Part shown: positions 9,711 to 54,816 of the stretch, one piece after another | How the letters are laid out: the number at the start of each line of letters is the position of its first letter | How positions within the stretch are numbered: position 1 is the stretch's first letter | NCBI GenBank assembly: GCA_018389105.1 | Contig: JACATO010000605.1 | Coordinates: 868,001-932,000 of the forward strand | From: Nautilus pompilius | Lineage: Eukaryota; Mollusca; Cephalopoda; Nautilida; Nautilidae | Direction of reading: 5' to 3' | Length of the DNA stretch: 64,000 nucleotides | The notes under the pieces: model-generated | Seen by the model: the letters and a program-made list of their open reading frames with translations, nothing else | Databases searched by the model: none | What the model was told of the DNA's origin: nothing | Program-made: the position numbers and the translations under genes

Positions 9711-10109
9711 CTTAAGATTTCGGATGTATTTTCATAAAATTTTATTTGGAATACATAGTATTTAATACAAATTACTTTTGATCCTGAGACTCTCAGATAT
9801 AAAAATTTTCGTTAAGTCGTTTTCTTTCGGTTGATGGTGTTGAAGAAAGAAACTTTCCCGGTCTCATAGTTCCCCAAAGTGATACTAAGCGGCCTGTTAA
9901 TTACTAGTTTGTACACCATCTGCCACGCAAGCGGCTTTCTCCAGACGCTTGGCTGGTTGGGTTATATATCTGTTGGCGCTCATATTTATCATTTTAACTC
10001 TATTCAAAATAACACTCACTACATAGTTAAAAATTTTGGAAACTTATATAAATTGTATTAAGCCATTGTATGGGTTAGGGTAGAGTCAGGGTAGCATATT
10101 ACGGCCCCT
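9711..10109. repeat. Diverged intronic module, paralogous to 5041-5260
   Basis: The partner of the module after the 4559 microexon. It contains GGCTGGTTGGGTTATATATC and CTCATATTTATCATTTTAAC, which match the other copy with substitutions. A 60-codon frame at 9879-10061 lies over it but shows no family features. Confidence 0.5.
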
Positions 10110-11809
10110 TTTTAATATAAAATTTCGAAATCTAAATTTATCCTCTTGTAAATATTGGAAGATCATAAAACAACCACATTTACTCTCGCAGACATACAGA
10201 CATAAACACTCCACAGGAGCCAGTGATCTTTGGCGAAAACGTCTGTGTGTTGGGCGATAGGGCTGAGTTGGCAGCTGGACTCACGTAGCAGACATGTAAG
10301 CCTCAAGATAGACAAATGTTTTTCCGTGTTTGATCAGCACCTTGCAGGTAAATGACGTCACGGTCAGCCTTTTAAACAGCCAAACAATCTCAGAACATGA
10401 CTTAATCTACGAGGATGCGGTGAATGGCAATGTGATAATTGTCATCTTATTTTTTCTGTTGCTGGGAGAAAATGCCTTTTGTGAAATAGAAAAATTTTCG
10501 TGTCAAAGATTTATTTCCCTTTAATACTCAACAAAAACAATTCTCTTTTGAAATAACCATCGTTTTCAGCACAAAACTTCCCTTTTTTAAATTTATGAAG
10601 CAAATTAAATATTTTTCTTGCAATATAACAGTTAATAAAAGTCAGCGTTGTCACCACAGCAATAAATCGGGTTAAAATCTAAATTTATCTCCATTGCTTC
10701 TTTTCAAGAGGTTATTCATTTTCTTTCCCTTTTTAAAATTACAGTAAGTATAAACGTATATGAATATGCCGTGAAAAAAGCGGAAGAGAAAATAAAACCC
10801 TAAATACCTAGAATTAGGGTTATACAAGGATTGACAATTTTTAATTTGTAAATTCTACCCAGGTTATGCTAAACAAAAACCGTGAATCATGGAACAGTAG
10901 GAAATACTTGAATAGCAAATATTTGTCTGTCGTAGTAATTTCCCTAATTCCTGACACTCTGAAGAATTTTATGTAATTATCGAACTTTATAATATATGCA
11001 GGTATTGGATAAAATGTAAGCATAATTACCAGATGATCTTCGTGCTCAGGTTTCAATAGGAATTCAAATTTAATTGTTATACATTTAACTCTCGCCCATT
11101 CTTGCTTTCTTTACTACAAATCCCTGTCGTTTAACGCTAATCTTTAGTATACTCTTAGGCAATGAAATCATGTCGCTTCTCTTACTCAAACATACCTTAT
11201 AAGTCTGGATAACAGGTAGTAACTTCCTATTGGAAAACAAAAAAAAAACACTAGTTACTCTAAGCGTGCAAATCTTTGTTCTAAAACGAATCAAACAATC
11301 AGCAAACTGCGAATGTAAAGTTGTAATGAAAGTAGAGAATTGGGGCCAGGTTTTAACTAATAAATCGCCTATCAAGCTAAGAAAAAGGTTTTATTTATTT
11401 ATTTCAAATAAAGAAATATGTTTTTCGAAGTTATTTTTAACATAAGCCAGAGAATGGTTTATTTCGAATTTTCTGTTTCTCGTTTCAAAATTGCGACAGA
11501 TGCAAACGATCCGCCCTCTTCCAAGTTAACTTGATGGATAAACAGAGGCAGGGTTTTACACGCCTCTGTTTAAGACTTTGTGCCGTCACGAATGAGTCAC
11601 GTGTTCTTTTTATCGCAGTAAACCCCTACGCCATAGACGATTTTGGAAAAATAATGTGAAAACTTTCACTTTTTCTTTTTGAAGAAACTAATATTCATTT
11701 TAATTTACGAATAACATAAATATTCATAAGACTAAGAAATATTAATGAAAAATTCAAATATTTAACAAGTGAACAGTTGAATTAAAGTAAAAGAAAATTA
11801 TTTGCTCTT
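10110..11809. repeat. Segmental duplication block A, copy 1
   Basis: About 1.7 kb nearly identical to 42107-43811, in the same orientation and the same order relative to the coiled-coil gene. Differences are scattered single bases and 1-bp indels. Identity begins near AAAATTTCGAAATCTAAATT and ends at GCTCTT, just before 11810. Open frames inside it (minus 10841-11056 and 11085-11375) are preserved only because the copies are recent; their proteins show no recognisable domain. Confidence 0.92.
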
Positions 11810-13329: not shown

Positions 13330-14663
13330 AGAACAAGCAGATTTTGCTCCAACTTGAATGGCACAGACCTGTACTTTCTGATTATGGCGATGAAGTTAGT
13401 CTCTATCTAACGAGTCGATTGTTTTTAATAGGAGTAATTTGTAGAATATCGGGATTTTACCCTTATGAAATTTCACGTCTCTCTCCAACTTCCAATACGA
13501 CATTTCTAAAAGACAGGAGTCTGTCTTCATTAAAGTCAACTGTTTAACACTCATGTATTCCGGTGGACGAGGATTCTTTATAAATAATCTTATTTTCTGT
13601 GTGATTAAGTCATCAATAAAGTCTTTTATGAACAAAATAACTAAAATGTTTGTTAAATTATTTTGATTCCATGTTCAGATCACGTGACAACTAATTACTT
13701 TGAGTTGTACTAATATCATCCAAGACCAGCTTATATGCTTCATCACCGACAGTTTTGATACCTTAAAGATACAAAAGTATTGATATATTGATAATAGATA
13801 AGCTGATGATGCTGATCGACAAATAAGATCCGTGAACAGACAGTTACACATAAGTTAGCAGTGAAGAAAGTATCCACTTTCCTCTAACTGATCACAATTC
13901 CGTTGTAACTTAAAGAATGATTCGAGTAACGTGTTCTGTTTTCTTTCTGTTTTTTCTGGTTTAGGTTTCTCCGATATGGAAGATGAATATGAAAAAGAGG
14001 TAAAGTGTGAAGTGATGAATATGTTGAGCTTGTGCGAAGGTATTAGGGAGAATAGTTGGCGAGTGTTTTGAAACTGTCAACTTTTCTCTCTCAGATTATA
14101 ATGTTCTGAAGAGAATAGTTAAGAATTAATCAGTCTACATCTACGTTTTCTGGTTTATTGTCTAACGACTCCAATGAAATTTAAGAATTACAGCAAGAAC
14201 ATATTTAATATATTGATGTTACACAGACTTGAATTTCTTCTACCTGATTGCATTCAATAGGTAAAAATATTTTTAAAAAACGATAATTGAGATATTTTCA
14301 CTTAAATTTTCCTATTAAAACAAATTTACAAAGGTTTCTTCACATTTTTAAGTGAATATACAAAAATAAAATTCAGTTAATAATGAGAGCATATGAAAAA
14401 AAAACTGGTCATGGCAAAGGAAAATGAAACAATTAAAAGTAGATGTGCTTGTGGTTCTAACGACACGAATCGACACGAATTGTTCACGTGTTTGGAATCT
14501 TCTTATTTTAATCTCAGAGGTAAACAAGCAAGGAATTTTGCTGAATGTACACGCGTTTATTTCAGATGATTTCTGCGATGATTGCTCACATATCGATATA
14601 TCTGAGAATTTCATGTAAATTAAGAAAACTACGTTAAGACTTTATTTTTCTGTTTGATTCAGG
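13330..14663. repeat. Older, diverged part of the tandem duplication (copy 1)
   Basis: Aligns in order with about 46040-47319, at a much lower identity (very roughly 80-87 percent where clear) than block A or the 3' block. Landmarks: GGAGTCTGTC near 13517/46052, ATTGATATATTGATAATAGAT near 13780/46460, GAAAGTATCCACT near 13865/46558, GTGTTCTGTTTTCTTTCTG before the exon, and ATTAAGAAAACTAC near 14620/47270. It carries the small exon at 13965-13999. Confidence 0.8.
13965..13999 (+). CDS. Exon: acidic 12-residue segment, copy 1
   Basis: The 35-nt exon lies between TTTTCTGGTTTAG and GAG|GTAAAG. With the leading G from the previous exon it encodes GFSDMEDEYEKE. It aligns with the 35-nt exon at 46648 of copy 2 (DFLNMDVEYANE), at about 10 differences in 35 bases. 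It changes the reading phase from 1 to 0. Met at 13976 could be an alternative translation start. Confidence 0.65.
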
Positions 14664-17221: not shown

Positions 17222-17386
17222 GAAATGAAAAATGAGAATATCTGGCTGAGGAATGAGAACGACAAGCTTGAAAGAGAGCTGGACAAACAAATGATGGTTA
17301 TGGATTTCTACAAGGAAAAAAAGAACGAACGGAATGATATGATAATTGACCAAGATAATAGGATGAGGAGAATAGTAATAAAGAAG
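17222..17386 (+). CDS. Exon: coiled-coil segment (55 aa), copy 1 version
   Basis: The 165-nt phase 0-0 exon follows acceptor TGATTGTGTAG and ends at AAGAAG|GTGAGT. It encodes a highly charged helix-forming segment: EMKNENIWLRNENDKLEREL, then DKQMMVMDFYKEKK, then an Asp/Asn/Arg-rich end. Leu/Ile/Met spacing suits a coiled coil. The exon in the same position of copy 2 (47320-47463, 48 aa) has no visible similarity, although the adjoining introns are nearly identical from the first intron base. Confidence 0.8.
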
Positions 17387-20300
17387 GTGAGTTAACGACA
17401 AAGTCAGGATTTCAAACTTTCTGAGAGCACTTAATTGTAATCCACCCCTACAACCTCTTGACCGTCACTAAAAATTGAACAAAAGAGGTGACAAAAATAG
17501 AAAGGCGGACAACCGCCTAAAAACAAACAGAAGATAAATAATTTTAAATGATGTGTAATTTTGACATTTACACGTTAGAGTCAGTCTCCATACTGCCCCC
17601 ATGAGTCGAGAACACAAGTTGCTAACCAAAAGACCCCCAGCTTCTCTCCGAAATATTTAAATCGTGTGTCGTAGTGTAGATTGGCCTGTGGCTTTTTCGT
17701 ATTGGTAAGGTCAACTTGTTGCTAAAACTAATAAGTTGCCAGATATTACTGAAAGAAGAGGTCTATTGTAAAGGGAGAGTCAGAATAAGTAAGCTGTTTC
17801 GGGGTATATATTTTGTTGGTTTGCTCGGTGAGTGAGAAAAGAATTGTTTCGTTTTTTGAAAAGATAAAAAACAGATTGGAGTCTGTGGTTTGGCGTGAGA
17901 CAATAAAGTGAAGGACTGGTCACCAAACTTTGCTACATACAAAGTGTAAGCGAATAAGAATATGTTACTCCAGGAATTAACTAGGTCATATTGAAAAGAG
18001 AATGAGAGAGAGAGAGAGTCAAATTAAAGAAAATCAACATATCAAAAACAGTCGATGGAAAGTACTAACAATACGATAAACTGTTCTCTAGGAAACCTAA
18101 GGAGGAAGAAGGCATCCGTGTAAGAAATCTGAAATTCTCTTCACTCAAAGACAAAAGAATGCCTGACACTATGATGAATGAGAGGAAGGGTTAAAATGTA
18201 CAACTTAAAAAGGATAAATTCAAGGAAGAATCACATTTGTTTAAAAGATATCAAAAGAGAGAAAACAGTAGGAAACAACTTGGCATAGGTGATGTAGATT
18301 TGTAAGGAAATGTTATAAAACAAAACTGGTTGAAAATGAAGATATCCTGTAGTTATTCCCATGTAGAGAAAGTTTTCTTTGTAGAGATTGAAAAGTTTCC
18401 TTCACATTGTATCACTCTAAAGCTCGCAAGTCATATACCCACAAAAACCAAAAAAAATTAGTATTATAAAAGACACTTTATGGAATTTAACCAAAATAAT
18501 ATTGAATAAACGCCATATTGGAATACAGGTTTATCAAAACATTAAAATAAAAATTAAAAAACAAAGGAATTCATTCTCTCGATCTATTTATCACTCAGAT
18601 TGTTAAGTCGTGGTATCAAACTACCACATCCGGTTGGTTGCGTGCTCTCATTTCTCAGGAAGCCTCGCAGCGAATGTTCTTTCTATATTTACATAATTTT
18701 TCTTTTCATCGTCTTCGTGCTTCGCCACCTTAAAAATCTACTTCATAGTTTCTGAAAACTAAAACAGTGCTACAAATTTTGTCTCTCCGTCGTTTCTTAT
18801 GCCAAATAAAGTAAGAACAATTTATCTCTTTTTACTCCGCTTACAACAGAATGTCTGTTTCAGTAATACTCGGCAACTTTATCATCTTAGCAACAAATTT
18901 ACATCATTGCTGATAATGAAACACGATGGATCATCGCCAAGTAGAAAAGCAATGGCACACGGCGCCAGAGACGGTTCATCAGAAAGACACCCAGGCGATT
19001 TCATCTTTCGCAACCAGTGACTATGTACAGGATCAGGTGGACAATCTTTCGCTCGCTCTTCAAACGGGGATCGGGCAAAGGACCAGCATGCATGGTGCAG
19101 CAGAGAATCCCTTTATTATTAGAAAAATGGAGTACCTGGAGGAAAATGAAAAGGCAGCAAAAGAAAAACAGTGAAGAAAACATAATGCCAAAGTCGCGCG
19201 CCACACCAGGCCGTCCAAGACCCAGATTGTAACTTAAGCCCTCAAATCTAGCAGTCGTACTGGCTGTGTGGGCAAAAGAATGAAGATCTGTCTATGAACC
19301 ACGAGTGTCCTCAATCCAGGGGCTGTGAGCGGGGACTGTTTTATGTAATTCTCTTTTTATTTCGATTTCAAATTATCATCAATAAACTTTTGTTGTGCTC
19401 TGATTTATAAAGCCTAATCCGATACATAGTTGTGTTGAAGGCCGTACTGTTTTTCGTCGCCCTCTTTGACCATTTTTCTTGGAGGTGGTCTATGGGCGAC
19501 TACCTAGATTTCGTTTGTGGTAGGAGTAGCAATGGAACTCGATGAAATCAACGAAACCACTTAGCATCAGTGTCTTCCCAATTATGACACGCGCGCGCTC
19601 GGCACAAACTTTAAAAGTACCGAGATATTTGAACACAACAGAGCAAAGTTTGATCATCTTATTGAATTGAGAATTGTTAATGTTGTTTTCATGCCAGCCG
19701 TTCCACTTCGATACTTCGATGTCATTTTGATGAGTGGGAACTAAGCGACTAAAGACGTTCTTAAAAATTAAATTTCAGTGATTTAGGACAAAATTAAGGA
19801 TGATGTGAAAAGTGTTGCTTAGCATTTAGTGAGAAAAAACTGCGCCAAGAGACCCTAGTAAAAAGGAAGTTGAACATTTTGAAAAAAATCCAAATGATTG
19901 ATTTCACATCTGAAAGTATTTCAGTTCAACGTTCCTTGAATGCTGGCCCTATTGACCACCTTTTGGTTTTGTGTACACCTGACTTAAATATTTCAAATTT
20001 ATCCTGTAATGCCAGTAATCGGTTATCGGAGGAAAGTTTCCCACTAGGAAAATTTCGGAAGTTATTCGATTAATCCAGTGTGTAGAGGCGCTAACAGAAC
20101 AATATGCTATGCCGCGTATGTTGGGCCGTAAACGGCATTAATGGACGCTGCATAAACTTAGAACAAGAGCGATAGTTCTTTCGGGAAGTATATACATCTA
20201 CCGTTCATTTAACACCAATGTTCACAATGTTTGTGAAATTAAATCTCCCTTCCTTTTAATCATGGTTTATTACTGATTAAACTAAATAAGGAGAAACGTT

Positions 20301-20676
20301 CACAAGAACGTTAACCCAGTTTCATTGCTATAAATGCGGGATTCCGTAAACTGATGTATCTGTCTGTCAACCATCTGAAGTGTATATTACTCTTGGTGGT
20401 ATGTGCACTATCTAACTATGCATTCTGCTGATGTGACTAGTGTGTACTCTTACACTTATAGTGTTATAATTTGTCTCCTTAACTGTCCAGCTAACTAGCT
20501 CAAGACAAAACATTAATGTTTTCAGATTATTTTCCCCATATGAGACGCCATTATTCTGTTCATTCTCCTTAGTGATCATTTGTCTTAGCTCTCAATAAAG
20601 ATAAATGCAGTGAAAATCAAACAGTCATTTGTCATTTACTGAATAAGAAACTAAACGAAACTTTTTTGCTTTTCAG
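17387..20676 (+). repeat. Intron almost identical between gene copies (copy 1)
   Basis: From donor GTGAGTTAACGACAAAGTC to about 20560 the sequence matches 47464-50667 nearly base for base. It then decays over the last 100 or so bases before the acceptor CTTTTCAG. Notable differences are a (GA)n run 2 bp shorter here and a 30-base segment present only in copy 2 (49041-49070). An 82-codon frame at 18926-19174 lies inside but is frameshifted in copy 2. No transposon ends were found at the intron borders. Confidence 0.9.
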
Positions 20677-20811
20677 TTTACGCTCGATCATATAAAAAAT
20701 CAGAAATCTAAGAAAGAAGGTTCCTATTTTCCGATCATTCTTAAGCTTGCTTCTACTGTAAAAAACTATGAAATGGACAGTCAGAAGTTCAAGGACAAAG
20801 CTGAAGTAGAG
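20677..20811 (+). CDS. Exon: 45-aa segment, copy 1 version
   Basis: The 135-nt phase 0-0 exon has acceptor TTTGCTTTTCAG and donor GAG|GTAAGT. It encodes FTLDHIKNQKSKKEG, SYFPIILKLASTVKNYEMDS and QKFKDKAEVE. The copy 2 exon at 50726-50860 is exactly the same length and ends in the same way (VIE against AEVE), but its sequence is otherwise unrelated by eye. Confidence 0.8.
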
Positions 20812-21047
20812 GTAAGTGTCCCGGACATAGCGTTCATTCGTCCGTCTCGGACACCTGCTGCACAAACGTATTAATCTGAATGTACGAAATACGGACCCGA
20901 AGGTTTCATCGGAGTCCCTTCGTGGAGAAGATCTTCGGGCTTTCGATATTTCACTTATTTGCGTAATCACGGTACCATGGACACCCCACTAATTCCTATT
21001 TAGCAAATAAGATATCATCCTTATAGCAAACTGTTTCTTTAGTGCAG

Positions 21048-21149
21048 CAGTGGGATCAGTGGCGCTGTAAAGTGGACGAAGCAGTCACTCTCACACTCGA
21101 TGATGAGCAGATTGCGGAATGTCACAAGAGTCAGGCAAAAATGCTGGAG
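21048..21149 (+). CDS. Exon: 34-aa segment, copy 1 only
   Basis: The 102-nt phase 0-0 exon has acceptor CTTTAGTGCAG and a weak donor GAG|GTTGTT. It encodes QWDQWRCKVDEAVTLTLDDE and QIAECHKSQAKMLE. A homologous but stop-interrupted sequence is present in copy 2 near 51139, so the exon seems lost there. An alternative acceptor at 21042 would give another frame; the phase 0 reading fits the neighbours. Confidence 0.6.
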
Positions 21150-22399
21150 GTTGTTTTCACTTTTACGCCAAAATGAAAATTAAATTTACTTCATGACGTC
21201 GACGGGAACTGAACACGTGGAGCAACTACGCAAAGAAAAACAATGTTTCCATCATAATGAGTCAAATAGATTAGCACAGTCAGAGAGATATAGAATAAGC
21301 TAAGTCGTGACGAACGTTTTTCGCTATGTGGGATTAGTAATAATATTGTGCTCAGGTGTAGATGAAAATATCTAATTGGCTAGCATCATAAGATCTAAAT
21401 TGAACGTTGCTGTGTTGATTCTACAGAAAACAGCTGACTAAATCACCTGTCATTCAGAAAAATCTTTGGCAGCATAAACATAACAGGAAAGCTTCAACTA
21501 AGAGATAAACTCTAGAAATAATATCGGTCGCTAGGGAAGCAGGGACATGAATTGGAGAAATAAGCGAAAAGCTTGCAAATTGATTTAAAGAAATGTAGTC
21601 CACAAGACGGAACCTTCCATGATGGGAATTGCTGTGGAACACACGAGAACGCAGACAGCGCTTCACTGATATGACCACAGAGACAAAGACGACCAGGACA
21701 ACGGGATTAGAACTGTACAGCTGGAAAGCGGCAGATGAGGTGGGAATGGAGCCACAAGCTAGTGCCAGTTTAGAAGTATAGAAAACTTAAAGTTGCAGTC
21801 TTGCATATGGACAGCATCATCACCAAACATTTTCATCAAATTAAATGAATGACTAGCATCGGCCGAAAACAAACCAGCTGTGTACCTCAGAGTTAAACCA
21901 ACATTCAATGCATTCAGTGAAAATGTTTGACTAATATCAAAGAACAAAATGGAAAAGATTTTGAATCATCTTACGGTTCTACTTTGGCTTGGAGGCTGGT
22001 AACTTGAAACCAGCCCTTTCTTATGCATGACTTTGGGCATACGCGCAATTGTCGATATCTTTGCCTTTCAGCTGAGGTTATATTACCTAAACTGTATCCG
22101 AGTTTTTTCTGGTTAATTATTCCTTTACTTTATAAATGTTTCTCTTAGTATTGGTAGTTAGACGGTCCGTGTGCATTAAATGCTTCGTCATTTAAGGTAG
22201 CATTTGCAGATAAATTTATTATGACTACAGTTTATCCTCCGTTTATTAAACTATTCATCAGACTTCTTTAAAAGAATGTATCTTAAGAAATGAAAGTAAA
22301 TAATACTAACTATGGCAGTTGAATCGATTGACTACTAATAATCTTGTTGGCTTGTTTTTTTTTTTTCAATTACCAAATATATATTGTGATCTGTTTCAG

Positions 22400-22549
22400 A
22401 AATACATACAGTATGCGATGAGCATCCTAAGCCAACGAAATAATAAACTGAGGAAAAGGATGGAATATTTGAATACTTACCGTGACATTCATAGAAGGAT
22501 TGAGAACACAAAGCATGATGACCTAAAAGAATGTCGAACCACGTTAGAA
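22400..22549 (+). CDS. Exon: 50-aa coiled-coil segment, copy 1
   Basis: The 150-nt phase 0-0 exon has acceptor TGATCTGTTTCAG and donor GAA|GTAAGT. It encodes KYIQYAMSILSQRNNKLRKR, MEYLNTYRDIHRRIENTKHD and DLKECRTTLE. Strong helix character with basic and acidic alternation. It is identical to the copy 2 exon at 54667-54816. Confidence 0.85.
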
Positions 22550-23295
22550 GTAAGTGTCAAACCTGTTCTCAATCTTTTTATCTTCTGTAAAGAAAAATAA
22601 CCAAGTAGTACTTTTCCATTCTTTCTGAAAAGGGCGCCACAAGACAGTCGGTACTCGTTAAGCAGTATGCGTTAATATTTAATAAGAAAAGCAAGGAATC
22701 CTAAACAACCTTAAGAAAAGGAAAGTATAGATAGCTCCAGATTCTTTGTGCTATATCCAATTTAATCTTAATTAGTATAAGTTTTCTACTAAGATCAGAG
22801 TCACTTTAAATCTTTTTGTGTTGCGCTTGGATGTCCAATAAACTCATCAGTTTAGGAAAATTCTAGAAGAATAAACAATGTTGAAAATTACAAAGTAAAT
22901 CCGCGGTTTACCTGCTTTATTTAAAAATTATCTTTATAAAAATATAAATCAATCAATTCTCAGATCTTTTTTCTGAAATATCTACGCGAAAACCTCTGTA
23001 CATTTGTGTGCTGTTTTGTTATAAAATTTTTGGACATAAAGAAAAATCGAACTATTGTACAAAGATTGTGCGTGTATAAAAGTCATGCACTACGGAAAGT
23101 CTTGTGTAAATTTAATTCCGAGAAAAACATTACCTTTATAAATAAAGCTAATTTATTTGCGTCTGTACTGTCTCAAAAATGCATTTATTCCTGTTACATT
23201 AAGTGTAATTGTTTTTCCTAAATTCTCTCATCTGTTTAGATATTTCTGAAATTTCTTCACTTTTTACCTTCGCTATCTTGTTCTTGTTGATCTAG

Positions 23296-23394
23296 AAAAA
23301 AAGGAGAGAGACAAATGAATGTGAAAGGAACGTGGGCAAGCTGCAGATCACCACATATCAGCATATACTGATGGATTATGGAGAGAGGCTTGAG
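23296..23394 (+). CDS. Exon: 33-aa segment, copy 1
   Basis: The 99-nt phase 0-0 exon has acceptor CTTGTTGATCTAG and donor GAG|GTGCAG, which is weak. It encodes KKRRETNECERNVGKLQITT and YQHILMDYGERLE. If the donor is not used, translation stops two codons later. It is identical to 55563-55661. Confidence 0.7.
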
Positions 23395-23843
23395 GTGCAG
23401 TAAATATTTTAATTAAATCAAAATTTTCGATGATCTTACAGTTATAACAAATATTTTAATAATTAAGAACGAGAAAAAATGTGACCTTTCTGATACAAGC
23501 TGAATCTATTATTTACCAACATTTGAAAAAAATTAAATAATAAATAACTTATCCATGTAGCTCCATCAATAAGCTGGGTACTTGAAAGGATTTTTATCAC
23601 GTACTGAGAAGACAATGTTTTAGTAGATTTCTCATTCAAATTTGGATTGCAATTCAAAAAAGATAAGGAATCTCTGTTAAGTAAATTTAAGTTATATGAT
23701 TTAATTGGAATCAGACGAGCATCTGGAAAATTGCTGGATTCAGTATAAAAAGAAAAAGAGGAAAAATCAGAAAGTCCCAACTACAAGGCAGATAGTTTTT
23801 CTTCTTTCTTTGTCTTACCTAAGGATTCGGAAACATTACTAAC

Positions 23844-23950
23844 AATTTATTTCACACGTGACTTAAGATCAATTTATTTCACACGTGACTTAAGATCAAT
23901 TTATTTCACACGTGACTTAAGATCAATTTATTTCACACGTGACTTAGATC
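23844..23950. repeat. 27-bp tandem repeat, four units
   Basis: Units 23844-23870, 23871-23897 and 23898-23924 are identical 27-mers containing TTTCACACGTGACTTAAGATC. The fourth (23925-23950) lacks one A, so GACTTAAGATC becomes GACTTAGATC. The last unit forms the acceptor and first bases of the exon at 23948. Each unit contains CACGTG, an E-box core. Confidence 0.97.
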
Positions 23951-24046
23951 AATTTGCGGTGGAAATTCTTAAAGAAAATACTGTCATTTGAATTGCGAAA
24001 AAAAAGTATGTATAATTTTTTTGAGGAAGTAGAGTACGAAAAACGT
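23948..24046 (+). CDS. Exon: 33-aa basic/acidic segment, copy 1
   Basis: The 99-nt phase 0-0 exon has its acceptor TTTCACACGTGACTTAG inside the last 27-bp repeat unit and ends at an ideal donor, CGT|GTAAGT. It encodes INLRWKFLKKILSFELRKKS and MYNFFEEVEYEKR. The end resembles the short exons at 13965 (MEDEYEKE) and 46648 (MDVEYANE), suggesting an internal exon duplication. Confidence 0.65.
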
Positions 24047-24096
24047 GTAAGTGCAGTAGTGTAGATTTTGACTTTATTGTAAATTTGACATAAGAG

Positions 24097-24207
24097 CAGC
24101 TTAAACGACTGGAAAGTGATAGTGAAGAAGATCCCGTAGATGGGTGGAGTAGAAAATACAGAAGATTGGAAAATGACTTTAATGGCTTCGAGAAAAACAA
24201 ATTTTGA
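24097..24207 (+). CDS. Candidate alternative terminal exon, copy 1
   Basis: After a possible 50-nt intron (24047-24096) an in-frame phase 0 segment encodes QLKRLESDSEEDPVDGWSRK and YRRLENDFNGFEKNKF, then TGA. The segment is strongly charged like the rest of the gene. The intron would be at the lower size limit and its acceptor (ATAAGAG or GAGCAG) is poor. An AATAAA lies near 24786. It could be an alternative 3' end or a decayed exon. Confidence 0.35.
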   Translation, partial: QLKRLESDSEEDPVDGWSRKYRRLENDFNGFEKNKF

Positions 24208-26501
24208 ATTTTGTGGAATTTTTCTATAACCTGAATTATACATATGTAATGACGTTGATTAAAGCATCAGTTATGACCTGCTTCGGCTGATTTGTATAAT
24301 TGTCTGAGAAATCCCTTCTTTGTTTTCCAAGATGATTATCTAAAGAGCATGACTACGAACAACCAATATTGCCTTGAAAGAAAAAAGATCCCTGATTAAT
24401 CTGTGGAAAAAATCTAACATCGAAATTATTCTGTCTGACGGGTAAAAGCTACAGTACACATAGCTGAAACAGAGTGCCATAAAAAAGATAATAGAACAAC
24501 CTGACTATAAGAAGAACATAAATTATTACAAAATTTAATACAATCTGTTGAAAGGAGATTGAATAACATAATGAATGATTGTCCTGGCATTACACAAGAA
24601 TTCCCAAAGAGTATAACTCAATTACAGACAAAATTACTGCTCCAAAACTCCATATCACTAGAACTCCGCTCATCCACATTTTCAGCTGCATTAATTCCTA
24701 CTGTCAGATGCTTCCTGCAAATCTTCTAAAAATTTTGATTTCATCAGCAAGAAGACAGATTTGTTAGTCCGACTCATTTTTTGGAAATAAATAGAAATTC
24801 TATCATTATGTTTTTAGATAGACTACTGATCTCTACTGTAGAGTCTGTTCACTAACGCCTCTACAGACGAGGCCCTCTGTGTAGTGAGAACAAAACTATA
24901 GGAGGACGATAACTACAATGTATATTACTGACACACGATTATTGAATCAATACTTCCCAACAATTCTAATACTTCTTATATGAAGGCTGCTTCAATAAAC
25001 AGACTGAGACCGAGGAAGTATCGATGAGTGCACAGATGTCACCGATCTAAACTAACTTGCAGATGGATGACATCATTTACCAAACCAAAAATATGCGTGC
25101 GATATGTCAATGGTTATCATTGCTTATCACACAGTAAACTACAGGAATATGTTTCTACTATATAAAAACGGTATACACGTAGACATCAAATTTACCATTA
25201 AACGGCTGAGTACCAATAAGTTTCCATTCCTTAATTTAATAATCATATCCTAATCATCAAACGAGAAAAATCTAATTAAAAGAGTACGACAAAAGAAACA
25301 CAGCAAGATATATTTGCATCTGAACTACAATTTTCATGAAAGAATGAAAATAAGAATTATCAAATATTTTGTCAGATACGGTAATGTTTAAACTACTGGT
25401 GTTACACGAATCAAAGAAATACTGATATTCACATCTAAACAAAATGGATATCCAGTTTCATATGCTACGAATAACATGAACCAAAGCCAGGACTGAAGAA
25501 GAAGAGAAAAATACAAAAACATCGTAATAGCTTTTATCAACGGTACATCAAAACGGGTTTCGTCTGTGTAAGAGTTTAGCATCCGAGTTGTCTATTATCG
25601 TTATGGCAGGATACTTAAAGATCTGACCGGTTTATCTCATATTAACATAGGGCAGCTACAAATACAGTTTACGCACCCGTAATTGTGTGAAACAGTACAT
25701 GAGAGAAACAAAAAGACCCACCATAATTAGCGTGGAAAAACGGAAAAGTGGCACAAAGTAGAGATTTATAAAAGCCAACCTAACCCGATCGTGCCTGGTC
25801 ATGTAATAAACACATTCGAGGAAACAGTTGTAATTGCACAAAATAAAATCAACATTATCAAAATAAGCCATCTGATCTGCGTAGTGTAAAAATCAGATAT
25901 GTGATTAACCTATATTCAGACAAAAGTTGAACATAAACAAGCTGTTTAGTTAGTGGGGCGAATACCTAAGTGATTTAGTGGATACATAAATCGATTAAGA
26001 ATAAAAAGTTTCAAATCCACTCCTCCAAAGCTAAAAACTTTTTAATAAATCGCTGGTTTCATCACTTTTAAAGAAACCAAGCTCGCCAATGTTTAATTTT
26101 ACTCTGCCATAAGATAGAATTAAAATGATCATAACAGAAATCAAAAAGAAAAAATTTTCATACAATTAGGCATTTTCACTAACTATTGTTCTTCTAAAGT
26201 ACCAGGTGTGAATCTTATAGAAATATATGGAACGTGGACAACTTAAAAATATCACAAATAAAGAAGACTTTTGGAAAGTATTTAAAATCAGAATTAGCAA
26301 TAAAATAAGCAAACGTTTCAACTTGTTTTATTTTTTCATAAATATTGTAATGAAAACATTACCATTATAATATTTTTGTTACTTATTTATTTGAAAAAAT
26401 TAAATATATTTTCCATTATTTCATATAATTCATGATAAAGTAAAAATTCTTATGTTTTTGAATTCCAAAGTATAACTTTTGATGCTATCGGTTTATTGAA
26501 G

Positions 26502-26606
26502 GAGCGAACCCTCGATATACTACCCAAAGCAGCAAAAATGGAGGTTGAACTAGATATCATAGGAAGGAATCTGCTCAGAACGTTGAAAATCTTTGAACAG
26601 AGAAAG
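26502..26606 (+). CDS. Exon: 35-aa coiled-coil segment, copy 1
   Basis: The 105-nt phase 0-0 exon has acceptor GGTTTATTGAAG and donor AAG|GTAAAC. It encodes ERTLDILPKAAKMEVELDII and GRNLLRTLKIFEQRK. An acceptor 3 bases downstream would drop the first Glu. It is identical to 58768-58872 and clearly helix-forming. Confidence 0.75.
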
Positions 26607-27959
26607 GTAAACCTCGATAAATATTTCAGTTAACTGAATCTATCCGTTGCAAAATAGGAATCTATTATGGCTCCTACAAGGCCCCTGAGGCATAGAATTT
26701 CTTAACAGACAATTTTAATGTATGTACGTTATAACCATTGGTTAACAGTTGGCAAATTATTCCATGAAATTTTTAGTATTTCATTTTTAGAACTTTGCGG
26801 ATATATGATTGTGAAGCCTCGAAGTATTACCTGTTGTAGAAAGCTTACAGTATTTGATTGTGTCTACTCTTTCAAAACTATTAATTGTTTTAAAAACAAG
26901 TCTCCTTCTAATCATCTTGCACCCAAACTGGACACATTTAACATTTTCACTTGTTCATTATCTTCTAAATATTTACAACTTGAATACACTCAAAGTCACA
27001 TAATGTATAGAAATATGTGTAAAACTAAATAAACCACCCTTTTGTACGTTTAGCGTAATATCTTTACACGTAAAGTTGATAACTGTAACACTTTAACAAC
27101 GGTGGTTTTAAAGGGATAGCATTAGAATTTGGAGAAGGTAAACCGTCATTCTTTTTTCTGTGCCATCGTTTATCCACACCAGTTTGATGTTTAAATGGCA
27201 TAATTAAATAATATATATTAATTCCAGAAAAGAAATATGGCAAGAAATAGTTAAGTAGCTGTATGATCAAAGCAGAAACAAAAGTCCGACACAGAGACTG
27301 ACATAAATAAACAGACACCCTGATCAAACGATCAGAATAGATACAGGCCATGGGAAGCCTTCGAGTGTTGACGGCAGCGCATCAAACAGGGTTCCTGGTA
27401 CCTCAGAGAATTTGAGAAAGAATGTATTGCTTTTATTCGGCCGGAGGTTAGTAAAAGCCAGTCAAAAGCATTTTGGCAATGAACATTTCTCTGTCCAATA
27501 CAAGAGAATCTATGACAAGACCGTTCAAGTGGATCCTGGATGTCCATAGAGAACAGAAAGTATACTTTATATGTAGAGAGGAACTTGGAAACCTAAACCT
27601 GAGTGTAATGTAAAATAACACATGCAGGCGTCTATGAGAAATATCAAACGTTATCTCTACAGCATGAGGTACAACAAATGAGCGGTGACATGAAAATTAC
27701 CTCATGTCATGTCAGTTACGACTGTTATGGGAAAAGAATATGCTACTACTACATCTTCATATTATTAGTATCATTTAAATTCCTCCGATGCTTACAGACA
27801 GTGGTTGTACATTTATGTAGCGACATGTGGCACAAGAAAGATCAGTAAGACATATAGCTGTATAGTTAGTTATCTGTCTGTCATGATATATAAAAAAAAA
27901 CAATTCTGATTACATGACGCTAACAGCGTATGTTCTGCCAAGGAATTGTAAATTCTTTC

Positions 27960-28280
27960 CAATACGTAAATTTGGAGCCAAGCTTCGATACGTATAAAGA
28001 GAGCATTAATTTGAGAGAAGATGGCGCCCCGGCTCACACCAAACTTGCATCGCGAAGATGGAAAGAAAGTCAAAGCATTAAAAACAACTCTTCCATGAGC
28101 TGGTCACCACTGCGCATAAATTCCTGTGAGCAACTGTGAACCATATTCGAACAATCCTCACGAAAGTTTAAAAAAAACCCAATTTCACCGAATACCAAAA
28201 CTGAATCTTTCTTCCACAGTATTTCGTAATGTGTTGATTTCTTAATAAAAAGAATGGGCTGCACTACAAAATATTAACAT
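27960..28280 (+). pseudogene. C-terminal fragment of a Tc1-like transposase (copy 1)
   Basis: Plus-strand translation gives EDGAPAHTKL (Tc1 'QDGAPAHT/QQDNDPKHT' region), then WSPLRINSCEQL*TIFEQ (Tc1 'WPPLSPDLNPIEQLW.IF'). Near 28260 it gives GCTTKY followed by a stop, like the 'GGHTKY' C-terminus. The Asp-Leu-Asn-Pro part is mutated and stops are present, so it is dead. It lies in an intron inside block C, so the insertion predates that block's duplication. Confidence 0.65.
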
Positions 28281-30663
28281 CGATCATTTTGCTAGTGCTA
28301 TGTGTAGTTCATTTATTGTAATAGATGTATATATCCCGTCCAGAATATAAACATTAGAACAGTTTTTTTTTCTTGAATACAAAGTGTTTTATATAAACGA
28401 AACAAAACGGTGTCATCGCTCTATTTATAAGAGCAAAACAGATGACATGATGGACTCTCGCTCACAACACCTATTCATAATAAGGGTTGTCGGGCTCTTT
28501 ACTAAATACACATTAGAATTACGAGCGCCGTTTAATTAATCGAAACAATTTGCTTTTAAAAATTAATTTTATACTTTCAGTCTTCTCTCCCACGAGAGCA
28601 ATCGATTCAGTGAGTAAAATATTTCCATATTGAATAAAAAATTTATTTCTGTTAAATTAATTTGATTTTGAAATCTGGTAAGTTTGAAGAGACTTCTCAA
28701 ACGGGGACTATTAAACATAATCAGATAGTCAACTGGTCTGCTAAGAAAACTCAACCCTGACAAAGGCACTTGGTATGCAAGTATACACAAAACATTACAG
28801 AACATTATTTCAAAACAATTTGCATTAAGAAATACACAACAAATATTACTTCACAATTTTTGACAGAAAACATTAGCATAAAACTAAAGGCCACTGGCCC
28901 AGTTTATAAAAAAAAACTAAGATATCTTCATAAAGATAGCGCTGCTACTGATAATGTGTGTGCAAAGACTTAGTTGATCTCAGCATTGATGCCAATGAAG
29001 ATTTACCTGAGTAATTCATTCAAAACAACATCACTTAAAGAAGGTAAGCCGAAGCTCAAGAAGGATTAAGTAAGCAAAGGTAGAAAGCTGAAAGTAAATG
29101 AGTCCTGATTTAAAAGTTATAATTTTAATTACTACATAACCGTTAGGTTTATAAAGCATTGCCTCTTTAATTTCTTGCTCAATTTAAGATAGGTGGTAAA
29201 GCAACTGAGTGAGACATTTATTCTAAACAAAAAGTTCAAAATATTGCAGCTGCTGAATGTGACACACAAATGTGAAATTGCCTTTCTACACGATTCTGAA
29301 AACAAGGTTCATTTTCTCAATGCTCTCTAGAACAGCCTGTGTGAACAACGCCACCATCAACTGCGAACGGTAACATATCTTGACGTTGAAGATGCCTTGC
29401 TCGGATGATTTTCTAAAGCTCTGGCTTGAATATCTCAAATTCTGAGAGAATATTGCGAACAGAGACAAAAGGTCTTACAGCAAAACTTGATCCCAGATAG
29501 ATGACATATATCATTGGTTGTTAGACAGAAAGTGAACGGTGGAGATGAATGAGCTGCATGAAGAGAAAAACGATTTAAAAATCTTTACTCGAGTGACACT
29601 TCATTTATGAAGGCAAAAAGAGTTTGGTGGAATAACGTAACCTGCAGGCTTTTTATGGTAGCATATTGGAGGCTTTAAGTATTTCACAGTATAGAAAGCA
29701 CAGACATCAAGGTTGAAATAAATGCAATGGCGTTACCAGAATAAGGTCAATTTAGACAATTTGTAAGGGTATTTTATGTAGGCTCCTCCTGCCCGCTTGG
29801 AATGTTTTACTAAATAAGCTAATAGCATAACTATTTTTAGAAAAAGAGTGAATATTTAATTTTAACAAAAGATATTTAAATAAGTTTTTACATTTCTTTC
29901 CTTTCCGACATTATATCTAATATGTTCATCTACAGTGAATATACCTTTTTGTTCATTTTACAGTTCTGAAGAGTCCTATCCTGAGAGGTAAAGTATGAAT
30001 TTGCTGGCGAACCCTTCTCCATTAATTCATATATGGTCAGAACCAGCCTCATCAATTTCACTTTAAGATTAACTTTAATAAAGATGAACAATGTTCACAC
30101 ATATTGCCCAGTTTGCTCTGACAGCATCCTGAAATTATATTTTATTGTGTTATAACGATTGAATTACATATAGCGTCCGTGATTTCTTATTTGAAGAGGT
30201 TTTAAAGTATCCTTAAATAAATTTTTGTAACAGAGTAATATAAATTTTATGTGCAGAACTGAAAAAGAACTCTCTTATCTAAGGATTTTAACTTTTCAAA
30301 AATTCCGAGTTTCTGAACAATTTCAATTCATTAGCATTTGTCTTGAAGGCTCTCGTCACTTCTTCTCTATTGTCTTTTGCTTGCAATCTGAAAAGAATTT
30401 TACACATGCAATTGGACGATGCAACAAGACGTAATGATGGCATCGATATGACAGCGAAGAAAATATGGGCAGACGTTTTCTATAGCCAGTGGGATACAAG
30501 AGACCAAGTTTATTTTAAATGTCCGCGCAATTTGTGTTTATTAACGTAGAAGTTTGATTATCAAAGCGAAAACAAAGAATGAATCCGTTGTGTTTGCTGT
30601 TTATAAAAGACGTTCTCATCTCACTTTTCTATTTTTGTTAATCTAATCAATCATCTTTTTCAG

Positions 30664-30768
30664 CCCAATGATTGCTCTTCAACAAAGCCAATAATATCTG
30701 AGAAACCCTTTGATTGGAAGTGGACTCTGATTTTCCAGACAAATTTAATTGATATCTTCCATCTTTAA
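30664..30768 (+). CDS. Terminal exon, copy 1
   Basis: This exon has a strong acceptor (CATCTTTTTCAG), enters in phase 0, has 34 codons and ends in TAA at 30766-30768. It encodes PNDCSSTKPIISEKPFDWKW and TLIFQTNLIDIFHL. AATAAA follows 23 bases after the stop. The copy 2 exon (62902-63006) differs at three bases, all changing an amino acid. Confidence 0.65.
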   Translation, partial: PNDCSSTKPIISEKPFDWKWTLIFQTNLIDIFHL

Positions 30769-30790
30769 TGCCTTTTGTTTGTTAAATACT

Positions 30791-30796
30791 AATAAA
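30791..30796 (+). terminator. Poly(A) signal AATAAA, copy 1
   Basis: AATAAA 23 bases after the TAA of the proposed terminal exon. The position suits a short 3' UTR. The same signal is at 63029-63034 in copy 2. Confidence 0.5.
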
Positions 30797-31138
30797 ATAA
30801 CTTATTTTATTGGTAACGACTACCTAATACCATGGGAATTTAATATATTTTTTCTTCACTAATTACCGTTGCTGTATTTTTTATGTAAACATTTTACAAT
30901 AAAATAATTGAAAACCTGAAAACCAAAACGTGTTGTCGCTGTTGTCGGATTTCATTGCCTGTTGTAAGCTGTACTGTACAGATCATCTTTAATTGACCCA
31001 GATCTGTCAATTCCACAAAAGTGTGATGCTATTTACATTTCCATTAGATTTTACTACAACAAAACTGAGATGAAATAGCCAGTAAAATATAAGAATTTGT
31101 GCAGTTCAACAAATAACCTTTAAAGAATTAACAATACT

Positions 31139-41745: not shown

Positions 41746-42106
41746 AATAGTTTGCTAACGCTAGAAAATCTGGAAAATTTTAAATATGAGCGTATCAACT
41801 CATAAGCATGCGGGCGTTCTATACGATGAAGATCCGTAAACATGACCGAGGAAACCTATCACAGTGTGTTCGGCTTTTAACGTAACGGTTCTTTTGAAGA
41901 CTGTCTAAAGTAACTTTCAATACACTACAATCAACTCTTCCAGTTTTCCGGATCACCCACATCAGCTTTCAGTTATTATTTAAAATACGTTGGAAGGAAG
42001 TAATCCACGAAGAAAATACTTTAATGATAAATTTCCTTTATTTTCGTGAACAATCATTTGTCAGTTATTAGTGAATTTAAAGAAGTTTCTAAAATGATGG
42101 TCATTT

Positions 42107-43811
42107 TTTTAATGTAAAATTTCGAAATCTAAATTTATCCTCTTGTAAATATTGAAAGATCATAAAACAACCACATTTACTCTCGCAGACATACAGACAT
42201 AAACACTCCACAGGAGCCAGTGATCTTTGGCGAAAACGTCTGTGTGTCGGGCGATAGGGCTGAGTTGGCAGCTGGACTCACGTAGCAGACATGTAAGCCT
42301 CAAGATAGACAAATGTTTTTCCGTGTTTGATCAGCACCTTGCAGGTAAATGACGTCACGGTCAGCCTTTTAAACAGCCAAACAATCTCAGAACATGACTT
42401 AATCTACGAGGATGCGGTGAATGGCAATGTGATAATAGTCATCTTATTTTTCTGTTGCTGGGAGAAAATGCCTTTTGTGAAATAGAAAAATTTTCGTGTC
42501 AAAGATTTATTTCCCTTTAATACTCAACAAAAACAATTCTCTTTTGAAATAACCATCGTTTTCAGCACAAAACTTCCCTTTTTTAAATTTATGAAGCAAA
42601 TTAAATATTTTTCTTGCAATATAACAGTTAATAAAAGTCAGCGTTGTCACCACAGCAATAAATCGGGTTAAAATCTAAATTTATCTCCATTGCTTCTTTT
42701 CAAGAGGTTATTCATTTTCTTTCCCTTTTTAAAATTACAGTAAGTATAAACGTATATGAATATGCCGTGAAAAAAGCGGAAGAGAAAATAAAACCCTAAA
42801 TACCTAGAATTAGGGTTATACAGGATTGACAATTTTTAATTTGTAAATTCTACCCAGGTTATGCTAAACAAAAACCGTGAATCATGGAACAGTAGGAAAT
42901 ACTTGAATAGCAAATATTTGTCTGTCGTAGTAATTTCCCTAATTCCTGACACTCTGAAGAATTTTATGTAATTATCGAACTTTATAATATATGCAGGTAT
43001 TGGATAAAATGTAAGCATAATTACCAGATGATCTTCATGCTCAGGTTTCAATAGGAATTCAAATTTAATTGTTATACATTTAACTCTCGCCCATTCTTGC
43101 TTTCTTTACTACAAATCCCTATGTCGTTTAACGCTAATCTTTAGTATACTCTTAGGCAATGAAATCATGTCGCTTCTCTTACTCAAACATACCTTATAAG
43201 TCTGGATAACAGGTAGTAACTTCCTGTTGGAAAACAAAAAAAAAAAACACTAGTTACTCTAAGCGTGCAAATCTTTGTTCTAAAACGAATCAAACAATCA
43301 GCAAACTGCGAATGTAAAGTTGTAATGAAAGTAGAGAATTGGGGCCAGGTTTTAACTAATAAATCGCCTATCAAGCTAAGAAAAAGGTTTTATTTATTTA
43401 TTTCAAATAAAGAAATATGTTTTTCGAAGTTATTTTTAACATAAGCCAGAGAATGGTTTATTTCGAATTTTCTGTTTCTCGTTTCAAAATTGCCGACAGA
43501 TGCAAACGATCCGCCCTCTTCCAAGTTAACTTGATGGATAAACAGAGGCAGGGTTTTACACGCCTCTGTTTAAGACTTTGTGCCGTCACGAATGAGTCAC
43601 GTGTTCATTTTATCGCAGTAAACCCCTACGCCATAGACGATTTTGGAAAAAATAATGTGAAAACTTTCACTTTTTCTTTTTGAAGAAACTAATATTCATT
43701 TAAATTTACGAATAATATAAATATTCATAAGACTAAGAAATATTAATGAAAAATTCAAACATTTAACAAGTGAACAGTTGAATTAAAGTAAAAGAAAATT
43801 ATTTGCTCTTC
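42107..43811. repeat. Segmental duplication block A, copy 2
   Basis: Near-identical to 10110-11809. Identity ends at GCTCTT, where the Tigger relic begins. Beyond the relic the sequence does not resume the copy 1 flank, so the transposon sits at the edge of the surviving homology. Confidence 0.92.
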
Positions 43812-47319: not shown

Positions 47320-47463
47320 AATCCGAGTGATTCTCAAGATAGAATGATGAATGAGTGGACTGCTAATACAGCGAAATTGGAAAGTCTTGAAATTAGATCG
47401 AAAATAAACGAAAAAAATAAGCGTTTATTTTGTGAAAGAATTAAAGAATTCGAAAATAAACAG
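47320..47463 (+). CDS. Exon: coiled-coil segment (48 aa), copy 2 version
   Basis: The 144-nt phase 0-0 exon has a strong acceptor, CTTTATTTTCAG, and donor AAACAG|GTGAGT. It encodes NPSDSQDRMMNEWTANTAKL, ESLEIRSKINEKNKRLFCER and IKEFENKQ. It has the same helix-rich, charged character as copy 1's 17222-17386 but no alignable sequence and is 7 codons shorter. The next base begins the near-identical intron. Confidence 0.8.
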
Positions 47464-50400: not shown

Positions 50401-50725
50401 GAAACGTTCACAAGAACGTTAACCCAGTTTCATTGCTATAAATGCGGGATTCCGTAAACTGATGTATCTGTCTGTCAACCATCTGAAGTGTATATTACTC
50501 TTGGTGGTATGTGCACTATCTAACTATGCATTCTGCTGATGTGACTAGTGTGTACTCTTACACTTATAGTGTTATAATTTGTCTCCTTAACTGTCCAGCT
50601 AACTAGCTCAAGACAAAACATTAATGTTTTCAGATTATTTTCCCCATATGAGACGCCATTATTCTGTTTTTTTTCTTTAGTGATCAACTATCTTAGATCT
50701 CAAGAAGATGAATTATATTTTTCAG
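47464..50725 (+). repeat. Intron almost identical between gene copies (copy 2)
   Basis: The counterpart of 17387-20676. Identity begins at the first intron base and fades about 60 bases before the acceptor, near CGCCATTATTCTGTT. Confidence 0.9.
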
Positions 50726-50860
50726 AATCAAGTGTTGAAATTAGAGAAACAACTACATGAGATACATTCCAATATATCAGTTGCCATTTCGAAAGTGAAT
50801 AATGAACTAACGAATCAAAGAGCAATTAATGAAGAAATGAGTAACACAACGGTAATAGAG
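50726..50860 (+). CDS. Exon: 45-aa coiled-coil segment, copy 2 version
   Basis: The 135-nt phase 0-0 exon has acceptor TATATTTTTCAG and donor GAG|GTAATT. It encodes NQVLKLEKQLHEIHSNISVA, ISKVNNELTNQRAINEEMSN and TTVIE, a clear heptad-like coiled coil. Same length as copy 1's 20677-20811 but a different sequence. Confidence 0.8.
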
Positions 50861-54666: not shown

Positions 54667-54816
54667 AAATACATACAGTATGCGATGAGCATCCTAAGCC
54701 AACGAAATAATAAACTGAGGAAAAGGATGGAATATTTGAATACTTACCGTGACATTCATAGAAGGATTGAGAACACAAAGCATGATGACCTAAAAGAATG
54801 TCGAACCACGTTAGAA
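54667..54816 (+). CDS. Exon: 50-aa coiled-coil segment, copy 2
   Basis: Identical in sequence, splice sites and phase to 22400-22549. The pyrimidine tract just upstream differs slightly (TTTTTTTTTCTCC against a longer T run), marking the start of the near-identical part of block C. Confidence 0.85.

Follow-up and report, generated by a model that had tools for sequence, protein, structure and literature searches.

Two gene copies in the window (the 64-kb stretch of DNA analysed here), copy 1 (c1) and copy 2 (c2), probably belong to an old tandem family of coiled-coil-like genes and appear to have been homogenised patchily by gene conversion or unequal exchange. Two copies compared at one intron had suggested an undescribed diversifying system to the authors of an earlier note; the additional copies and the homogenisation of exons 5-7 speak for another reading, and the pattern is best explained by patchwise gene conversion and not by a new diversifying mechanism. 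As predicted from sequence, the family encodes a small orphan protein that is apparently not secreted.

Family members and predicted gene model

Genome searches detected further copies. One of them, c0, occupies the region about 18 to 2 kb ahead of the window; the same contig also bears one partial and two additional c0-type copies, and c4 lies on contig C96. Together c0, c1 and c2 form a tandem cluster within about 85 kb, with more copies on the contig; the description of c1 and c2 as tandem gene copies is supported. A match at C57:92113-92244 (E=3.3e-6, 71%) was rejected as a member, as the surrounding 3.1 kb aligned at only 52% identity (1,101 columns) and lacked a clear exon 1.

The intact-looking c0 harbors seven predicted coding exons, all in phase 0, which would encode about 280 aa from the ATG in exon 1 to a stop just past exon 7. 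The same chain of phase-0, coiled-coil-like predicted exons is common to c0, c1, c2 and c4, in agreement with the coil-like composition that had been proposed for the coding exons. Frame 0 is free of stops over 837 codons, while the two remaining forward frames contain 84/815 and 91/815; this count covers 22 of 27 exons (omitted were c1 exon 4, c4 exon 5, where a stop is present, and c2 exons 5-7 as duplicates), and the exon scan itself required open frames. Some members may be pseudogenes, given this stop in exon 5 of c4 and a 1-base gap in exon 5 of one c0-type copy. For the window copies the predicted exons are as follows.

Copy 1 exon 1: 13965..13999, + strand; acceptor, 11 nt of presumed 5'UTR, ATG, MEDEYEKE, donor GTAAAG; layout shared with c0, c2 and c4
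Copy 2 exon 1: 46648..46682, + strand; MDVEYANE; within a 561-bp tract 95.7% identical to c0
Copy 1 exon 2: 17222..17386, + strand; 55 aa, phase 0; open frame with AG/GTGAGT sites, exon scan
Copy 2 exon 2: 47320..47463, + strand; 48 aa, phase 0; exon scan
Copy 1 exon 3: 20677..20811, + strand; 45 aa, phase 0; below the exon-scan threshold, length equal in c2 and c4
Copy 2 exon 3: 50726..50860, + strand; 45 aa, phase 0; exon scan; alignment with c4 exon 3 beats 200/200 shuffles
Copy 1 possible exon 4: 21045..21149, + strand; weak donor GTTGTT; uncertain
Copy 1 exon 5: 22400..22549, + strand; 50 aa; identical in copy 2
Copy 2 exon 5: 54667..54816, + strand; exon scan and copy comparison
Copy 1 exon 6: 23296..23394, + strand; 33 aa, as in c0 and c4; identical in copy 2; weak donor GTGCAG
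Copy 2 exon 6: 55563..55661, + strand; copy comparison
Copy 1 exon 7 to in-frame stop: 26502..26633, + strand; probable last coding exon; GT donor also at 26607; identical in copy 2
Copy 2 exon 7 to stop: 58768..58899, + strand; copy comparison
Copy 2 open segment: 51505..51689, + strand; ends with TAA overlapping AATAAA; stretch absent from copy 1

The presence of exon 4 in both window copies is doubtful: the copy-1 candidate did not align with exon 4 of c0 or c4 above chance, and the copy-2 counterpart near 51144-51228 is degenerate. The open segment at 51505..51689, for which no counterpart was identified, is possibly an alternative last exon or may be open by chance. Exon 5 measures 50 aa in 3 of 4 copies (c1 and c2 having the same sequence), and its helical periodicity reached p<0.05 (uncorrected) in all four, as was the case for 7/23 exons overall.

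The earlier description of an unrecognised gene was borne out by the protein searches, in which no homologue was found. With the composite c1 protein 3 candidates were obtained, none at E<=10, and with the composite c0 protein 5,875 candidates, none at E<=1; Pfam yielded sub-threshold matches only, comparison of the c0 composite with the PDB by sequence gave nothing at E<=0.1, and tRNA and Rfam scans of the 64-kb window gave 0 matches. The predicted N-termini (MEDEYEKE, MDVEYANE and MDQQSRNQ) are charged or polar and run into the coil-like exon 2. Because a signal peptide was not apparent at the predicted start when the N-termini were read by eye, the comparison with secreted effectors or toxins is unsupported. 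An exon upstream of the predicted start may have been missed. Expression and function of the protein are presumed.

Near-identical blocks between the window copies

Intron 2 is one of three collinear near-identical blocks (A, B and C) between c1 and c2, and a further tract is common to copy 2 and c0.

Block A, copy 1: 10109..11809, + strand; 98.9% identical to 42106-43810; upstream of exon 1
Block A, copy 2: 42106..43810, + strand; alignment of copies
Block B, copy 1 intron 2: 17387..20676, + strand; near-identical part 17385-20606
Block B, copy 2 intron 2: 47464..50725, + strand; near-identical part 47462-50713
Open frame of 82 aa inside block B, copy 1: 18926..19171, + strand; candidate ORF only, copy-2 version broken by indels
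Block C, copy 1: 21422..31138, + strand; 98.8% identical to 53714-63375; 9.7 kb, with exons 5, 6 and 7 inside
Block C, copy 2: 53714..63375, + strand; alignment of copies
Tract common to copy 2 and c0: 46255..46815, + strand; 561 bp, 95.7%; includes exon 1

Alignment of 17377-20606 with 47455-50713 gave 98.0% identity over 3,263 columns. At the 5' edge, identity in 50-bp windows jumped from 0.48 (17337-17386) to 1.00 (17387-17436), exactly at the start of intron 2; the identical run extends 137 bp downstream of the exon-2 donor and only 2 bases (AG) upstream of it, so that block B starts within 2 bp of the donor. The 3' edge was found inside the intron, 70-116 bp before exon 3 in copy 1, as identity is perfect up to 20560, about 76% up to 20606 (11 differences in 46 bases) and then lost. 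The near-identity of the intron and the switch at its first base, as previously reported, therefore hold, but the match stops short of the downstream exon. The boundary of identity separates recently copied from old DNA, and it meets an exon edge at one place.

Intron 1 is old and diverged (66% identity between c1 and c2), and the stretch that begins where exon 3 ends and includes intron 3 reached a score of 154 (shuffled maximum 104; 50 shuffles). A 364-bp piece related to block A (85%) is found in c0, where it also precedes exon 1. Upstream of the 46255..46815 tract, c0 and c2 share only 75.5% identity over 139 columns, and just downstream no match was present among the matches listed. Predicted exons 5, 6 and 7, which lie in block C, are 100% identical between c1 and c2.

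Within the blocks, substitutions are distributed unevenly. Block B has 16 in 1,774 bp followed by 0 in 1,400 bp (Poisson P ~3e-6), and block C has 26 in 945 bp, 0 in 6,434 bp and 10 in 2,338 bp (P ~4e-11 for the middle part, 22367-28800, which also has a few indels), with cut points that were picked in both blocks after data inspection. This unevenness makes more than one copying event likely. The blocks are sharp-edged tracts between tandem copies, and their differing ages rest on these post hoc cut points.

Divergence of exons 2 and 3

That exons 2 and 3 of c1 and c2 have no alignable sequence was confirmed: for exons 2 and 3, respectively, the match was not above that of shuffled sequences at the nucleotide (p=0.65 and 0.78, 300 shuffles) or protein level (p=0.92 and 0.42, 300 shuffles), nor in global alignments (p=0.44 and 0.355, 200 shuffles). 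Nevertheless, they should not be called unrelated, as in four copies both keep the same place in the chain, the same phase and similar lengths (48-63 and 45-51 aa), and exon 3 of copy 2 aligns with that of c4 above all 200 shuffles and with that of c0 at p=0.005. For exon 3 of copy 1 the values against c4 and c0 were only p=0.08 and 0.06 (200 shuffles). Neither is there a general reversal of exon and intron conservation, since exons 5-7 are homogenised along with their introns and introns 1 and 3 are diverged.

Among c0, c1 and c4, global identities were 0.40-0.67 over exons 2-7 and flanks, some of them at chance level. With exons and introns drifted this far, constraint on the protein seems to consist mainly in keeping the frame open and in preserving its length and a coil-like composition. 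The family is an orphan coiled-coil-like gene with a well kept exon layout and little conserved sequence, and it can serve as a case for asking if length and composition are the only constraints on coil proteins.

Possible selection on the exons

Under diversifying selection, exons would outpace neutral introns while conversion keeps the introns alike. We consider this possible but unlikely. When copy 1 was compared with c0 and c4, its exons exceeded chance by less than the introns flanking them in 10/10 cases, which cover 5 distinct exons without exon 4. However, exons were above their flanks in 4/6 cases between c0 and c4 and in 1/4 for c2. The dN/dS ratio of c0 and c4 was about 0.88, near saturation, with a pN/pS bootstrap range of 0.67-1.32 (155 codons) close to the codon-shuffled null, and the codon-position test, likewise saturated, gave nothing significant in 6/6 pairs. 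In a protein-level version of this test third positions were seemingly better kept than first and second ones, which was discounted as the null favours positions 1 and 2. The identity of exons 5-7 between c1 and c2 also argues against such selection. Taken together, the data are only suggestive of exon change faster than neutral. Less likely again is a lineage-specific array whose coiled-coil exons would outpace neutral introns in diversification, with intron conversion, bounded by already non-homologous exons, keeping the array able to recombine; if true, the array would generate diversity in an intracellular coiled-coil protein in a self-organising way.

Origin of the patchwork

Three collinear blocks, the old sequence between them and their uneven divergence suggest gene conversion as the likely cause, as the earlier note had considered; exon exchange as the main cause was considered as well and then dropped. 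We infer the following course. Exons and introns of c0, c1 and c4 would have drifted far in an old family, and c1 and c2 would later have been homogenised in patches comprising block A, block B (intron 2) and the 9.7-kb block C with exons 5-7, while copy 2 came to share the tract including exon 1 with c0. Exons 2 and 3 would lie in unconverted patches and so have kept their old divergence beside an intron of 98% identity. At the 5' edge, alignable identity perhaps ended at the donor, with the shared donor AGGTGAGTT as switch point, or conversions running into exon 2 were perhaps lost. Patchy homogenisation of an old tandem family can in this way mimic reversed exon/intron conservation, and the family lends itself to the question of whether diverged exons are where conversion tracts tend to stop. 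Recombination usually requires high identity; the blocks adjoin sequence of about 66% identity, so the start of exchange is unexplained under the conversion reading. Under simple conversion, an edge exactly at the donor amounts to a modest coincidence.

A reverse history, in which the whole unit was recently duplicated (about 98-99%) and one copy then had its exon 1-2 and exon 3-4 patches replaced through conversion from another, older member, appears rather unlikely. Copy 2 did exchange with another member, as seen from its exon 1 region, and its exon 3 resembles those of c4 and c0 more than that of copy 1 does. A donor of exons 2-3 was not found for either window copy, and the c0 protein search (17 matches, all c0-type) could not have shown one. 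The alignments agree with the reverse history nearly as closely as with the conversion reading. Divergent haplotypes of one locus misassembled in tandem, or another assembly artefact, have little probability: near-identical c0-type copies also occur at the far end of the contig, but both window copies lie inside one 1.2-Mb contig, and their scattered substitutions, different insertions and 66% introns go beyond what ordinary alleles would show.

Two insertions of a mobile element or introner, each between unrelated exons, would account for a highly similar 3.2-kb sequence between dissimilar exons, and the 5' part of intron 2 of c1 indeed gave no alignment above shuffles with intron 2 of c4 or c0. 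This origin is nonetheless very unlikely, with a probability close to nil, because the 3' part of the intron can be aligned to c4 (score 343.5, shuffled maximum 150) and c0 (score 160, shuffled maximum 120; 30 shuffles each). In addition, a search of the genome (727.6 Mb, very common words skipped) with block B returned two long matches, which are the copies themselves, and one 35-bp match; no terminal repeats were found in it, only two internal inverted pairs, and it is collinear with blocks A and C. For the 82-aa open frame inside it, the protein homology search gave no candidate, and four weak matches (E ~0.5) were obtained against the PDB by sequence.

Comparison with known systems

In snake venom phospholipase A2 genes, introns are more alike than exons and the products are secreted toxins; the window genes have no sequence or structural link to them.

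Parallels of reversed conservation are already in print for Hessian fly salivary genes and primate L/M opsin introns. The SSSGP families of the Hessian fly are described as a tandem cluster in which introns and other noncoding parts are far more alike than coding parts, for which the authors propose noncoding homogenisation together with coding divergence; the products are small and secreted, share a conserved signal-peptide region and show strong positive selection (Chen et al. 2010, PMC2955719). The window genes are likewise clustered in tandem, but differ in that a conserved signal-peptide region is not apparent by eye and that only blocks A, B and C are alike while introns 1 and 3 are old and exons 5-7 identical between c1 and c2. 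Their dN/dS is about 0.9, near saturation (c0-c4). In the primate L/M opsin pair, according to a gibbon study, exons diverge more than introns because conversion tracts are mostly intronic, with exon divergence following the usual pattern under constraint (PMC3213168). Sharp-edged tracts between tandem copies are a shared feature. Here, divergence is lower in intron 2 than in exons 2-3, which does not extend to introns 1 and 3 or to exons 5-7, and exons 2 and 3 can no longer be aligned between the window copies.

In pea aphid cassette effector families, rapidly differing coding parts are reported to be divided among numerous exons of large genes, with a secretory signal that is conserved and, in the described locus, 33/37 exons at 15 bp or less (PMC7495047); neither a secretory signal nor mostly tiny exons were seen in the window genes. 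Synaptonemal complex proteins are presented as coiled-coil proteins of diverged sequence and conserved length and coil layout, with divergence attributed to neutral evolution (Kursel et al. 2021, PMC8598163). In contrast to these, the divergence described here is among copies in one genome and not between species, and no evidence of a link to meiosis was seen; the family is coil-like with diverged sequence, and its exon 6 measures 33 aa in all four copies.

Recently copied and old DNA in c1 and c2

Self-comparison of the window (C582:868001-932000; genome 727.6 Mb, 2,558 contigs) showed that the two tandem gene copies, c1 and c2, share three collinear near-identical blocks, A, B and C.

Stretches shared by c1 and c2 (window self-comparison; c1 / c2 coordinates, identity)
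10109-11809 / 42106-43810, block A, 98.9%
13636-14632 / 46321-47281, diverged stretch, 66%
17377-20606 / 47455-50713, block B (intron 2), 98.0%
21422-31138 / 53714-63375, block C, 98.8%

The near-identity of intron 2 described in the earlier note was thus recovered as block B. The note had identity begin at the exact first intron base, and the left edge does lie within 2 bp of the exon-2 donor (137 identical bases downstream, AG upstream). The right edge tapers off before the exon: identity is perfect up to 20560, falls to about 76% as far as 20606 and disappears from there on, 70-116 bp ahead of exon 3. Exons 2 and 3 indeed gave no c1/c2 alignment beyond shuffles at the DNA or protein level. 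The wider claim of diverged exons beside conserved introns was not borne out: intron 1 is 66% identical and intron 3 scored 154 where shuffles reached at most 104, and both are likewise old. The predicted exons 5, 6 and 7 (22400-22549, 23296-23394 and 26502-26606) lie inside block C with zero c1/c2 differences. Since introns 1 and 3 are old and these exons are identical, the contrast sets recently copied DNA against old DNA, not exon against intron.

Family members

Further paralogues were sought in the genome, as the earlier note had suggested. The 100 kb fetched on either side of the window contained a third copy, c0, which spans -19.7 to -1.9 kb in window coordinates. When the c2 exon-1 region was searched against the genome, 11 matches were listed, which take in c0, c1, c2, c3, c4 and a weak match on contig C57 that is not counted as a family member. 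The protein encoded by c0 exons 2-7 had 17 matches in the genome, every one of them on C582 (six in c0, one in c3, five in each of two further c0-type copies).

Copies outside the window and its flanks
C582:74994-75913, c3, partial, c0-like (c2 exon-1 search)
C96:54935-56356, c4, diverged copy (c2 exon-1 search)
C582 about 1.6-12.7 kb, first further c0-type copy, exons 3-7 matched
C582 about 24.2-35.4 kb, second further c0-type copy, exons 3-7 matched

Copy c4 is collinear piecewise along the gene (20 kb fetched). As c1, c2 and c4 were missing from the protein matches at E<=10, their exons have drifted far. Across exons 3-7 and flanks the two c0-type copies hardly differ from c0: the second has 1 substitution in 645 exon bases, the first 2 exon substitutions and a 1-base gap in exon 5, and its exon flanks add 2 further substitutions plus several gaps. 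Between c3 and c0 there are 22 differing alignment positions in 5.2 kb, none of them in exons 1 or 2. The two c0-type copies and the partial one (G000:C582:1608-35368 and 74001-79247; G000, this assembly) share a contig with c0, at a distance of about 770-850 kb from it, and may be either a recent segmental duplication or an assembly artefact.

Predicted gene

A scan on splice sites and composition, which required open frames, listed five phase-0 exons in c0, two in c1, three in c2 and four in c4; further predicted exons were placed through alignment or reading. Frame 0 contained 0 stops in 837 codons, compared with 84/815 and 91/815 in the other forward frames (22 of 27 exons; the count omits c4 exon 5, which has a stop and a GC donor, as well as c1 exon 4 and, as duplicates, exons 5-7 of c2), an openness that is partly a selection effect because the scan demanded open frames and these exons were excluded. 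In all four copies (c0, c1, c2, c4) exon 1 carries an ATG 11 nt past the acceptor and exon 7, unless spliced further, reaches a stop after 2, 8, 8 and 3 codons, respectively; c0 thus reads as a complete predicted protein, about 280 aa long. Exon 6 encodes 33 aa in 4/4 copies and exon 5 50 aa in 3/4, and exon 4 is clear solely in c0 and c4. Composition suggests a coiled coil; 7 of the 23 exons showed helical periodicity (p<0.05, uncorrected), and exon 5 of every copy was among them. Homology searches found no homologue of the predicted protein. Owing to the frame break, stop and GC donor in its exon 5 (G000:C96:65555-65707), c4 may be a pseudogene.

Origin of intron 2 and probable exchange between copies

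The 3' part of c1 intron 2 aligned with intron 2 of c4 (343.5, shuffled maximum 150) and of c0 (160, shuffled maximum 120) and is therefore ancestral; the 5' part was not above shuffles against either. A transposon inserted twice, the alternative named in the earlier note, would also place one intron sequence beside unrelated exons, but this homology and the genome search with intron 2, which found two copies and one 35-bp match (the search skips very common words), make it very unlikely.

Substitutions are clumped, with cut points set post hoc: 16 in 1,774 bp and then 0 in 1,400 bp for block B; 26 in 945 bp, 0 in 6,434 bp and 10 in 2,338 bp for block C. Copies c2 and c0 have a common tract of 561 bp (95.7%) that includes exon 1; upstream of it they are 75.5% identical over 139 columns, and just downstream no match was listed. 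Several exchange events of differing age between tandem copies would account for both the clumping and the c0/c2 tract. The near-identical blocks adjoin sequence merely about 66% alike. At the donor edge, either the donor sequence common to c1 and c2 may have served as the switch point, or conversions reaching into exon 2 may have been lost.

Rates of exon change

Excess similarity of exons over shuffles exceeded the mean flank in 4/6 exons for c0 against c4, in 0/10 comparisons of c1 with c0 or c4 (5 distinct exons, not counting exon 4) and in 1/4 of c2 with c0 or c4 (exons 2 and 3 only). The exon dN/dS, a check proposed earlier, was 0.88 for c0 against c4 (155 codons drawn from exons 3, 4, 6 and 7, omitting exons 2 and 5; bootstrap range of pN/pS 0.67-1.32); it is near saturation, since pS (0.417) and pN (0.383) are close to the codon-shuffled null (0.563 and 0.450). 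None of six pairs reached significance when codon positions were compared. The exons thus seem to be drifting roughly neutrally, and for the c1 lineage there is no more than a hint of change faster than neutral.

We regard the family as orphan, fast-drifting, coiled-coil-like genes with patchy conversion. The nearest printed parallels found are the SSSGP genes of the Hessian fly (PMC2955719) and the gibbon L/M opsins (PMC3213168); signal peptide and exon size set the pea aphid cassette effectors (PMC7495047) apart. Coil proteins that keep length while losing sequence are treated in PMC8598163.

Other elements

18926-19171, open frame of 82 aa within block B (c1), frame-broken in c2; c1/c2 differences cluster there, and no homologue was found
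14976-15975, 241- and 130-aa open frames of a dispersed repeat within c1 intron 1, with no Pfam match; similar pieces occur near 73, 82, 110 and -24 kb (window coordinates)
51505-51689, c2-only open segment whose TAA end overlaps AATAAA; the stretch is absent from c1
43811-45900, GC-rich insertion separating block A from exon 1 in c2, containing a CENP-B-type DNA-binding domain (minus strand); probably a pogo/Tigger-like transposon
34939-36208, 1.3-kb repeat, 86% identical to opposite-strand window-coordinate 144262-142977
36472-38764, minisatellite within a GC-richer stretch; its 38-bp unit is repeated about 60 times (73% matches)
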